Shown here: in pieces, positions 10,902 to 24,009 of the stretch
Layout: the number at the start of each line of letters is the position of its first letter
How positions within the stretch are numbered: position 1 is the stretch's first letter
Assembly: GCA_951828515.1 (NCBI GenBank)
Contig: OX639992.1
Location: 5,434,217-5,498,216, forward strand
Direction: 5' to 3'
Length of the DNA: 64,000 bases
Source of the DNA: an uncultured Poribacteria bacterium
Lineage (GTDB): Bacteria; Poribacteria; WGA-4E; WGA-3G
Position numbers and translations under genes: made by a program
The notes under the pieces: generated by a model
The model's input: only the letters and a program-made list of their open reading frames with translations
What the model was told of the DNA's origin: nothing
Database searches by the model: none

Positions 10902-11158
10902 TGAAACTTCTCCTCAAGATGTGATATGTATTGGAATCCTGAAAACCATTTCGCCATGTCCAAATCGTGTCCTTTTCAAAGCAGACAAATTTCCCGATAT
11001 AGGCACAAACCAAATGGCATTGACCGAAATTGTAGTGGAAAATTATAATAAATGCAAGTTAAAATAGTAACAGAGATTTTCACCATAGCACTCATAATTT
11101 TCCAGTGTGCTTTGCAACTTTATGTTATCACTCATTCGGCTTTATACAGGAGGAACCA

Positions 11159-12388
11159 ATGCCAGGCGCAACAACCCTTTATTTTCCAGAAGTGGGACCC
11201 GAATGGCAAGACTGGGTCCAGGTCACAAACGTGGGGACTGAAGATACCCGTGTGACCGGAATCGCGAGGCATGCCAACAACGGGCAACCCACGTGGTCTG
11301 CGGAAAAAACAATTAGTTCCTTCGAGTCCTGGATACCCCCCGTTGACGAGATTAAAACGAACTCCTCAATGCAGTTCACCGCCGACCAACCGATTGTAGC
11401 AGAACGACACATGCACAAGGACACGAATGTGCTTGATTTTATCGGTGCAGCCCCCGAATACGGGACAGTCGGACAGCGGCTCTTCTTTCCCGAATTGGTC
11501 TCCGGTGCTCACGACTGGTTTCGGGTTCTAAACGTGGGTGAGGCAGATGCGCACGTCAACATCACCGTCCGAAAAAGGAACGGAGATGTAATCAGACAGC
11601 GCCATCATGTCATCAAGCCACTCTGCTGTTGGGATCTCAACGAAGGTGTGATGGGGAACGTTACCGGCACAGTTGAGATGCAAAGTTCACAACCGATCGT
11701 TGGAGAACGACATCTCCACTACCAAGGCGGTAAAACAAGTGTCGGACAATTTGGGCAAGTGATTTCGGATGCACCTCGGACCCTCTTTTTGCCAGAAGTC
11801 GGACCCGCATGGCAAGATTGGGTTGTCATCGTCAACGTTGGAAGAGAAGATGCAGAAGTAACGATGATTGCCCGGAAAGATGACGACGCACGATCAACAT
11901 GGACAAAAAAACGCGATCGACTGAGACCTTTTGAGTGCTGGACACCACCCATAGACGATATTAAAGTAAACTCCTCCGTAGAAGTGCGCAGCAATCAGCC
12001 GGTTGTCGCCGAACGACACATGCATAGTGGAACAGCCATTATCGATTTACCCGGTGCCTCGGTGGAGGGTGGACAGATTGGTATTCGGCTTTTTTTCCCT
12101 GAAATCGCAGGGGGTGCTTGGGATTGGTTCCGATTCCTTAACGTCGGGGAAGCAGATGCCTTCGTCAATGTCATCGTCCGCAATCGGGAGGGACATATCC
12201 GTCGGCAAGTGCATCGCCAAATTAAGCCGCTCTGCTGTGTGGATATGGATGAGGAGGCAATGGGGAAAGTGCGCGGCACCGTCGAAGTGCAAAGCACACA
12301 ACCGATTGTCGGCGAGAGACACCTACACTACCAAACTGGACACAAAGGCGCGGTTGTCGGTGAATACGGGGTCGTGATAGGAGAGTAA
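11159..12388 (+). CDS. four-repeat protein of unknown function (ABAB arrangement)
   Basis: 409 aa built of four units of about 100 residues. Each opens with a [FL]FPE block followed by a conserved aromatic patch and Asn-Val-Gly (for example LYFPEVGPEWQDW and LFFPELVSGAHDWF), and each closes with QPIVAERHMH or QPIVGERHLHY. Units 1 and 3 resemble each other (GPxWQDW, PP[VI]D[ED]IK) and units 2 and 4 resemble each other (HDWF/WDWF, IKPLCC), so an ancestral pair was duplicated. There is no signal peptide or membrane segment with this start, which is fixed by AGGAGG eleven bases upstream. The repeated Glu-Arg-His-x-His could bind metal. Only three bases separate its stop from the predicted selenoprotein gene, so they form an operon. 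I do not recognise a family. Confidence 0.85.
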   Translation: MPGATTLYFPEVGPEWQDWVQVTNVGTEDTRVTGIARHANNGQPTWSAEKTISSFESWIPPVDEIKTNSSMQFTADQPIVAERHMHKDTNVLDFIGAAPEYGTVGQRLFFPELVSGAHDWFRVLNVGEADAHVNITVRKRNGDVIRQRHHVIKPLCCWDLNEGVMGNVTGTVEMQSSQPIVGERHLHYQGGKTSVGQFGQVISDAPRTLFLPEVGPAWQDWVVIVNVGREDAEVTMIARKDDDARSTWTKKRDRLRPFECWTPPIDDIKVNSSVEVRSNQPVVAERHMHSGTAIIDLPGASVEGGQIGIRLFFPEIAGGAWDWFRFLNVGEADAFVNVIVRNREGHIRRQVHRQIKPLCCVDMDEEAMGKVRGTVEVQSTQPIVGERHLHYQTGHKGAVVGEYGVVIGE

Positions 12389-12391
12389 AAT

Positions 12392-12961
12392 ATGGCATGG
12401 ATTCAAACTGTAGATGAGGCAGATGCCACTGGCATCGTGAAAGAGGAATATGACGCGGCAATCGCGCGGGCGGGACAACTTTACAATGTCGTCAAACTTT
12501 TCAGCGTCCGACCGAAAAGTATGCGCGCTTTTGTTGAACTCTACAAAATCGTGATGCACGACCCAGACTCCCCCTTAAGTCGGATGCAACGCGAAATGAT
12601 TGCCACCGTCGTCTCAAAATTGAACGAATGCCACTACTGAATAATAGCACACGCCGATGAGTTGCGGGAACAATTCACAAACGAACAAATTTCACAGATT
12701 GTGACGGATTTTCAGACGGCTGATATTGATGAAACCACGAAAGCGATTCTTGAATTTGCCGTCAAAGTAACGAATGCAGCACCTACCGTTACACCGGCAG
12801 ACTTGGAACGCCTTCGCGATTATGGACTCACCGATGAGGCACTCTTCGCTATTGTGGAGGTCGTCGGCTTTTTTTGTTACGTCAATAGGATAGCAGACGC
12901 TTTTGGAATAGAATTAGACGATTTTCTGGAAGGGAGAAATTTTAATGAATCTAACGGATAA
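12392..12961 (+). CDS. AhpD/CMD-family peroxidase-related protein, predicted selenoprotein (TGA at 12638 = Sec83)
   Basis: The frame is open from ATG 12392 (GGAGAG upstream) to 12961 except for one TGA at 12638. The residues around it read N-E-C80-H-Y-(TGA)-I-I-A-H87, the AhpD redox motif C-x-x-C with the second Cys replaced by TGA, followed by the conserved Ala-His. Homology to peroxidase-related AhpD proteins runs straight through the stop, and the downstream half has no start with a ribosome-binding site. A hairpin fitting bacterial SECIS rules lies 17 bases after the TGA. CxxU forms of this family are known. Expected product: 189 aa, a thiol/selenol peroxidase or disulfide reductase in the cytoplasm. 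If Sec were not inserted, a useless 82-aa product lacking the His would result. It overlaps the following SDR gene by 17 bases. Confidence 0.85.
12658..12677 (+). promoter_or_regulatory. candidate bacterial SECIS element
   Basis: TGAGTTG (12658-12664) pairs with CAATTCA (12671-12677) to make a 7-bp stem including one G-U pair, with the six-base loop CGGGAA. The stem begins 17 bases after the TGA codon. A G in one of the first two loop positions and a loop 16-37 bases from the UGA are the accepted criteria for SelB-binding SECIS elements in bacteria, and both are met. The hairpin is wholly within coding sequence, as required in bacteria. Confidence 0.75.
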
Positions 12962-13691
12962 AATTGCGATTGTGACAGGCGCGGGACAAGGTATCGGCAA
13001 AGCGATTGCTATCAGGCTCGCAAACGCTGGGGCAAATGTCGCCATCATGGATTTAAACATGGATGCGGCAGAAGCAGTAGCACAGGAAATTGAATCCATT
13101 GGTCGCAAAGCATTACCGGTGCAGGCAGATGTTTCACAGGCTACTGATGTCAATGCCGCTGTGGAAAAGGTAATTTCCACCTTCAGTCGTGTCGATATAC
13201 TCGTCAATAACGCTGGTATTACGGGACGGACATTGCCGCTAACCGATTTAGAAGATGCAGATTGGGATGCCGTGATGGGTGTAAACCTGACGGGTGTTTT
13301 CCTCTGTTGCAGGGCAGTGATTGGTCCAATGATCGCACAGGATTACGGTAGGATTGTGAACATCGCCTCAATTGCTGGCAAGGAAGGCAATCCGACGCTT
13401 ATCCCATATTCGGTGTCTAAGGCGGGTGTGATCTGTTTGACAAAAGCACTCGCAAAAGAGGTAACCGACTATAACATCCGTGTGAACGCCGTGTCGCCCG
13501 CGGTGATCCAAACATCGATATTGGACGGTATGGCACAATCGACCATCGACTATATGGTGGGCAAGATTCCGTTGGGACGTGTCGGGAAACCGGAGGAAGT
13601 TGCGGCTGTGGTGAATTTCTTGGCTTCGGATGAGACGAGTTTTGTGACAGGGCAGTGTTACGATGTCAGCGGCGGAAGAGCAACATATTAG
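12945..13691 (+). CDS. short-chain dehydrogenase/reductase, FabG-like
   Basis: Classical SDR: TGAGQGIG cofactor loop (residues 11-18), NNAG at 88-91, catalytic Ser142, Tyr155 and Lys159 (PYSVSKAG), and a C-terminal VTGQCYDVSGG. The Asp after the second strand (MDLN) suggests NAD(H) preference. 248 aa. It starts inside the end of the selenoprotein gene with GGGAG upstream. Being third in the cluster, it may act on the same metabolite as the first two, but FabG-like enzymes are too versatile to name a substrate. Confidence 0.93.
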   Translation: MNLTDKIAIVTGAGQGIGKAIAIRLANAGANVAIMDLNMDAAEAVAQEIESIGRKALPVQADVSQATDVNAAVEKVISTFSRVDILVNNAGITGRTLPLTDLEDADWDAVMGVNLTGVFLCCRAVIGPMIAQDYGRIVNIASIAGKEGNPTLIPYSVSKAGVICLTKALAKEVTDYNIRVNAVSPAVIQTSILDGMAQSTIDYMVGKIPLGRVGKPEEVAAVVNFLASDETSFVTGQCYDVSGGRATY

Positions 13692-23604: not shown

Positions 23605-24009
23605 ATGTTGACGACATGGGAGGACTACCTGTATTTTTATTACGTTGAAGTCGATCCATCTCAAATGGATATAAAACAACTGGAGCAAAAATTGTTGGAT
23701 ACCTTTACCCCACCCTTCTCCCAAACAGGATATTCGGCAGAAGTAGGGGCAGCGGTCAGATTATCAAGAGTGTGAAAATTCAGGATGATTTCAAAATTGC
23801 CTACAGAGCTGACACAAACGCCTTATCATGGGGTCATCTGGCACCCTACACAAAAAAAAATGATAATAAAAGATAAAACGCTCGTTAAAAATTTGCTACT
23901 CTATATGCTAAATCATTTTGGGGGAGATGTAGATAAATTACGTAAGGATTATGCCAAGGCAATAGGTATTGAAATGGAAAAGGTTGAATTGCCGAAAAAA
24001 GTGTTGTAA
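23605..24009 (+). pseudogene. truncated gene with in-frame TGA (GIY-YIG-like N-terminal piece)
   Basis: Two short frames, 23605-23772 and 23785-24009, are in the same phase and separated only by a TGA at 23773. The first encodes 56 aa with YFYYVEVDPSQMDIKQLEQKLLDTF-TPPFS, a pattern (yyV...LE..Li..f.PPfN) like the end of GIY-YIG nuclease domains. The second encodes 74 aa beginning TPYHGVIWHPTQKKMIIKDK; not recognised. There is no ribosome-binding site at 23605 and the N-terminal half of a GIY-YIG domain is missing, so this is best read as the decayed 3' part of a larger gene. No SECIS-like hairpin follows the TGA. Confidence 0.55.

Follow-up and report, generated by a model that had tools for sequence, protein, structure and literature searches.

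A gene of an uncultured, sponge-associated poribacterium that appears to be broken is almost certainly whole, with its in-frame TGA decoded as selenocysteine (Sec) in the redox motif of an AhpD-like protein. The gene lies within the 64,000-nucleotide stretch of DNA that we analysed (the window; all coordinates are given in Table 1). Its frame, read through, comprises 189 codons with a TGA at residue 83 as the sole interruption, in the context NECHY-U-IIAHADELR (motif C80-H-Y-U83). An earlier note on this DNA had placed the TGA at the second Cys of a CxxC site followed by a conserved His, which translation and alignment show to be exact; it had also anticipated that ordinary annotation would report two broken genes, and a standard ORF caller does split the frame into pieces of 82 and 99 amino acids. 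Judged from sequence, the product is very probably a full-length AhpD-like selenoprotein that acquires Sec by way of SelB and a downstream hairpin, and would most likely act as a soluble thiol/selenol redox enzyme.

Table 1. Features of the selenoprotein locus, in window coordinates
Feature	Position	Strand	Description and evidence
Upstream repeat-protein gene	11159..12388	+	Ends 3 nt before selenoprotein ATG; same place in family-f1 relatives
GGAG ribosome-binding site	12380..12383	+	8 nt before selenoprotein ATG, within end of upstream gene; sequence
Predicted AhpD-like selenoprotein CDS	12392..12961	+	189 aa, Sec = residue 83, stop TAA 12959-12961; TIGR01926 score; 43 close single-TGA copies
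Glu68 codon, proton-relay Glu position	12593..12595	+	Invariant in 34-sequence alignment; spacing E-12-C-3-U-4-H
Cys80 codon, first Cys of CxxU	12629..12631	+	Invariant in 34-sequence alignment
Tyr82 codon, proton-relay Tyr position	12635..12637	+	Invariant; by spacing, Tyr88 of 2PRR and Tyr127 of Sestrin2 (PMC4674687)
TGA codon, predicted to be read as Sec (U83)	12638..12640	+	TGA in 47/47 Poribacteria homologues, 80/80 named loci
His87 codon, proton-relay His	12650..12652	+	Invariant in 34-sequence alignment
Putative bacterial SECIS hairpin	12658..12677	+	Stem UGAGUUG/CAAUUCA, 7 bp, loop CGGGAA; covariation
Short-chain dehydrogenase/reductase (SDR)	12945..13691	+	PF13561 5.9e-68; conserved order

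The genome from which the window is taken (a Poribacterium, 5.85 Mb in a single contig) contains selA, selB, selC and selD, all four of which the earlier note had inferred for the organism. The tRNA-Sec (selC, 78.1 bits; ARAGORN also finds it, with anticodon tca) begins 183 nt downstream of the SelB match (347.5 bits), and SelA and SelD match at 594 and 359 bits, respectively. The selD gene has one in-frame TGA of its own, at a KCAGU site that we take to be the position expected for the SelD catalytic Cys/Sec. This second TGA is followed by a hairpin, GCUC-CGGGU-GAGC (L020:1531-1558, at about 4977761 of genome contig C1), whose loop starts with CGGG as in the AhpD-like SECIS but which lies 8 nt nearer its TGA. 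Across the phylum SelB exceeded the cut-off in 76 of 85 genomes (55 of the 56 of good quality), and the genomes with a close TGA copy of the AhpD-like gene were all SelB-positive except five, which are 73-83% complete; in other phyla, 12 of the 15 genomes behind the TGA loci described below had SelB over the cut-off. Co-occurrence of SelA and SelB has been reported for most sponge-symbiont bins (PMC5649159).

We compared the gene with its homologues within and beyond the phylum. A protein search found that 42 of the 85 phylum genomes have at least one close copy of full length; there are 43 such copies, each with exactly one TGA, in addition to a copy bearing extra stops (in G023) and five more distant TGA copies. 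The TGA occupies the same column of a codon-level alignment in 47 of 47 Poribacteria homologues, and 49 of the 52 matches to the TIGR01926 profile over the phylum contain it, the other three being CxxC paralogues. In a named genome collection the best 80 of 544 relatives all have TGA at the Sec codon: 20 are from Poribacteria and 60 (TGA in 60 of 60) from Planctomycetota, Chloroflexota, Acidobacteriota, Armatimonadota, Actinomycetota, Gemmatimonadota and Latescibacterota; the near relatives that bear names are without exception Candidatus Poribacteria. The peptide search patterns left out the Sec position, so that a Cys form could match as well as a Sec form; the 80 are a sample of the best matches, and more distant Cys forms certainly exist, given that the GOS survey counted 299 Sec forms and 902 Cys forms of AhpD-like 1 (PMC2398784). 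The ratio dN/dS between the window gene and its relatives (pairs with unsaturated dS) is 0.085-0.176 after the TGA and 0.035-0.25 before it, the low values past the TGA indicating that the downstream part is translated and useful.

These comparisons bear directly on the possibility that a Cys codon was mutated to TGA, or misread in sequencing, leaving two pieces of a pseudogene. The output of the standard ORF caller is what this reading predicts, and true decay does occur among relatives (an extra TAG in the G023 copy, and deleted copies in four genomes); the same TGA in 42 phylum genomes and at 60 named loci of other phyla, purifying selection past the TGA and covariation of the hairpin nevertheless argue against it, and on this comparative evidence we regard it as refuted, with a negligible chance of being correct. 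The earlier note had named two findings that would tell against Sec, a genome lacking the machinery and relatives with a random codon or a frameshift at the position; the machinery is present, and the relatives have TGA. Two relatives are noted separately. The G023 homologue (L066, G023:C1:3747719-3748219, a single-contig genome) has the Sec TGA, an in-frame TAG and an early stop, and is probably decaying or else affected by sequence errors. Genome G018 has two copies (L083 / L030, G018:C8), of 61% and 89% identity; the latter carries the full gene order of the window genus and probably reflects contamination of the bin by a foreign contig, or else a transfer.

The hairpin itself was described correctly in the earlier note (a 7-bp stem with loop CGGGAA, 17 bases past the TGA). 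Its stem halves occupy 12658-12664 and 12671-12677, with one G-U pair, and its loop begins 24 nt after the TGA. The bSECIS model specifies a loop of 3-9 nt, a stem of 4-16 bp, a G in loop position 1 or 2, a spacing of 16-37 nt and a folding energy of at most -7.5 kcal/mol (PMC13188914). The window copy agrees with the loop, stem and spacing rules (6 nt with G second, 7 bp, 24 nt) and misses the energy limit, at -5.7 kcal/mol, although that limit is a prediction filter rather than a defining feature of a bacterial selenoprotein; many relatives pass it (for example, L024 at -9.1 and L041 at -16.3). The energy of the window hairpin taken alone (53 nt) corresponds to a z of -0.5, with 60 of 200 shuffles as good, and we dropped single-sequence folding as evidence. 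The description of a good SECIS hairpin matching bacterial rules thus holds for loop, stem and spacing, and for the covariation described next; it does not hold for folding energy, in which the window copy is weak. An Rfam scan of the window found nothing, which is no evidence against a SECIS.

Because the energy of the window hairpin is unremarkable, the evidence for a SECIS is covariation and not stability. Among 38 distinct Poribacteria sequences, 96.2% of the cells are paired and 22 changes are two-sided, where shuffles average 5.1 (0 of 500 shuffles match), and among 91 sequences from eight phyla 93.0% are paired, with 102 two-sided cells (0 of 500 shuffles), but both of these cell-counting shuffle measures are inflated by the relatedness of the sequences. 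The argument is therefore carried by the slid-partner control, in which pairing across the 38 Poribacteria sequences falls to 25-40%, and by an independent switch of the stem, which is mostly GAGUUG/CAACUC in Poribacteria and GACCUC/GAGGUC elsewhere, with a loop of CGGG or CGUG common to both. As judged from these alignments, the hairpin is under structural selection. About 10 of the 91 sequences, mostly from Acidobacteria, keep the TGA and have no canonical stem at this register (L105, L116, L126, L135, L136, L139, L141, L142, L154 and L162); their SECIS may be shifted or different.

Reading of the TGA by a suppressor tRNA, or through a general reassignment of TGA, would also yield a full-length product. 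We found no evidence supporting such a mechanism, and the presence of selC, selB and a conserved SECIS, together with the lack of any other convincing TGA read-through in the window, makes it extremely improbable. That last point comes from a script scan of the window for further TGA read-through genes, in which no convincing one was found; at 23605-24009, two short in-frame ORFs are parted by a TGA, and we rejected them as a selenoprotein (no Pfam match, no Cys context).

The assignment to AhpD/CMD peroxidase-related proteins proposed in the earlier note is upheld by profiles, by solved structures and by fold. The protein matches Pfam CMD and scores 146.8 bits against the NCBIfam model TIGR01926 'peroxidase-related enzyme' (cut-off 81.8). 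An AlphaFold2 model built from 34 sequences (pLDDT 89.1) has the all-helical peroxidase-related fold; its best solved matches are 2PRR, 3C1L, 2PFX and 6K40 (TM 0.81-0.85, about 30% identity). Next come 2GMY, S. pneumoniae AhpD and the debrominase Bmp8, with Sestrin2 as a weaker match. In the alignment with Cys-containing homologues that had been suggested as a check, the TGA corresponds to the second Cys of 2PFX, 3C1L and 2PRR, and of paralogues L072 and L077. Glu68, Cys80, Tyr82, Sec83 and His87 do not vary among the 34 aligned sequences and reproduce the AhpD proton relay with Sec for the second Cys. The corresponding residues are Glu118/Cys130/His132/Cys133/His137 in M. tuberculosis AhpD and Glu36/Cys48/Tyr50/Cys51/His55 in PA0269 (PMC3141380), and Glu74/Cys86/Tyr88/Cys89/His93 in 2PRR (PMC4674687).

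Comparison with known systems places the protein more narrowly. The Cys-form peroxidase-related AhpD structures (2PRR, 3C1L, 2PFX, 2OYO and 6K40) share its fold over the whole length and its pattern of Glu followed by Cys-x-Tyr-(Cys or Sec)-x3-His; they have CxxC, whereas the window protein has Sec at the second Cys position. M. tuberculosis AhpD matches in the spacing of its Glu/Cys/Cys/His relay but differs in chain topology, has very low identity (1KNC and 1LW1 are weak Foldseek matches) and has His132 where the window protein has Tyr82. Sestrin (PF04636, Sesn-A) has the Cys-x-Tyr-x4-His pattern in common with it; the fold match is weak, the PF04636 score is 22.2 bits against a gathering threshold of 29.4, and the second position, Leu128 in Sestrin2 (which lacks a second Cys), is Sec in the window protein. 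Similarity to NCBIfam NF041238 CFYUT, NF053654 YciW-related and TIGR04169 is detectable, with scores so far below the cut-offs that membership in these families was excluded.

From this gene, recoded codon, RNA hairpin, Sec machinery and active-site pattern, as found in the sequence data, a catalytic cycle can be proposed. A SelB-Sec-tRNA complex on the in-frame downstream hairpin would decode the TGA as Sec, placing it where the AhpD CxxC has its second Cys; the Glu68/Tyr82/His87 relay would activate the U83 selenol for attack on an organic hydroperoxide, Cys80 would resolve the resulting selenenic acid by forming a Se-S bond, and this bond would be reduced by a cellular thiol system. We think it reasonably likely that the enzyme performs selenol/thiol hydroperoxide reductase chemistry with Cys80 as the partner, and we infer the substrate, the first-attacking residue and the reductant as in this cycle. 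The role assigned to U83 is uncertain, because in Sestrin2 the first Cys alone is the peroxidatic residue (PMC4674687).

Two other functions were weighed against hydroperoxide reduction. In the first, the Sec-containing protein would chiefly be an adaptor of the disulfide/selenenylsulfide type, returning a peroxiredoxin to its reduced state in the way that AhpD serves AhpC, and would not itself act as a peroxidase. We consider this possible but rather unlikely: Sec is expected, from established chemistry, to increase peroxidatic reactivity, and no peroxiredoxin or ahpC gene adjoins the gene, either within the window or in the flanking genes that were tested. A dithiol-like CxxU site would fit the role; AhpD is described as both an essential adaptor and a peroxidase, and PA0269 as a weak peroxidase (PMC3141380). 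The second alternative is a selenol-dependent reductive dehalogenase acting on halogenated metabolites, by a mechanism akin to that of Bmp8, a CMD-family dehalogenase (PMC7918430). The fold match to the Bmp8 structures 6OHI and 6OHJ is significant (TM about 0.73, E about 1e-5), and marine sponges, in which Poribacteria live, produce halogenated compounds. Identity to Bmp8 is nevertheless 18-19% versus about 30% to the peroxidase-related group, the TIGR01926 assignment speaks for the latter, and the subfamily also occurs in groundwater and soil lineages; we therefore consider dehalogenation highly improbable.

The selenoprotein gene is closely flanked on both sides. The SDR start overlaps its last 17 nt, with a GGGAG ribosome-binding site (12932-12936) inside the selenoprotein frame; this overlap, together with the 3-nt gap upstream, indicates that the repeat gene, the selenoprotein and the SDR are probably one transcription unit. 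This order is kept in nearly all family-f1 relatives and is absent in more distant Poribacteria (L061-L066) and in other phyla. Outside Poribacteria no conserved neighbour indicating a pathway was found among the flanking genes tested, which show no common theme (YkuD, ankyrin repeats, amino-acid permease, abhydrolase, GHMP kinase, methyltransferases). The upstream protein consists of repeated FFPE-G--W-DW--V-NVG units and has no Pfam match; its ORF can open at 11105, and one relative starts at the ATG equivalent to 11159.

The best-matching relatives apparently form a Sec-only subfamily spanning at least eight phyla. When 107 Sec and 3 Cys sequences are placed in one tree, all Sec forms fall on one side of a branch with support of 86/87, and the Cys branches are long. 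The CxxC TIGR01926 paralogues (L072, G062:C127; L077, G017:C556; L078, G010:C154) lie on short contigs and are about 31-34% identical. In four genomes (L073 in G053, L074 in G083, L075 in G073 and L076 in G070) both neighbours are kept and the selenoprotein core is deleted, with distinct end points (window equivalents 12408-12850, 12412-12864, 12404-12845 and 12388-12890); every deletion spares the gene end bearing the SDR ribosome-binding site. In the Poribacteria sample the gene is either kept with Sec or lost, with no conversion to Cys. It is conceivable, though we consider it doubtful, that across this subfamily of at least eight phyla the selenol is not replaceable by a thiol, so that lineages discard the gene instead of changing it to a Cys form.

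AhpD-like selenoproteins with CxxU were first reported in Sargasso Sea data in 2005 (PMC1088965) and appear as 'AhpD-like 1' in the GOS survey (PMC2398784) and as 'AhpD-like protein, TIGR01926, CxxU' among the known selenoproteins of a review (PMC13188914), in line with the earlier note's statement that such proteins exist in bacteria. The window protein shares the profile (TIGR01926 / COG2128), the CxxU and the in-frame SECIS-like hairpin with this family, with no known difference in kind; in the literature searched, no mention of selenoproteins from Poribacteria was found. By sequence criteria it is a well-supported new Poribacteria member of a known family, a result that is solid and ordinary in kind. 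What is added is the apparent Sec-only subfamily of best matches, the Poribacteria gene order and loss by separate in-place deletions rather than by change to Cys. The analysis also supplies a covariation-supported SECIS whose window copy would have been lost under an energy threshold. It repairs a gene that would be annotated automatically as two pieces in dozens of Poribacteria genomes, and gives the Sec machinery noted in sponge symbionts a concrete protein product. The lack of a Cys form among the 107 relatives, together with repeated deletion, makes the Sec dependence of the subfamily testable; a selenol that no thiol can replace, if real, would point to a selenium-requiring reaction, such as reducing one specific lipid hydroperoxide, or a dehalogenation.
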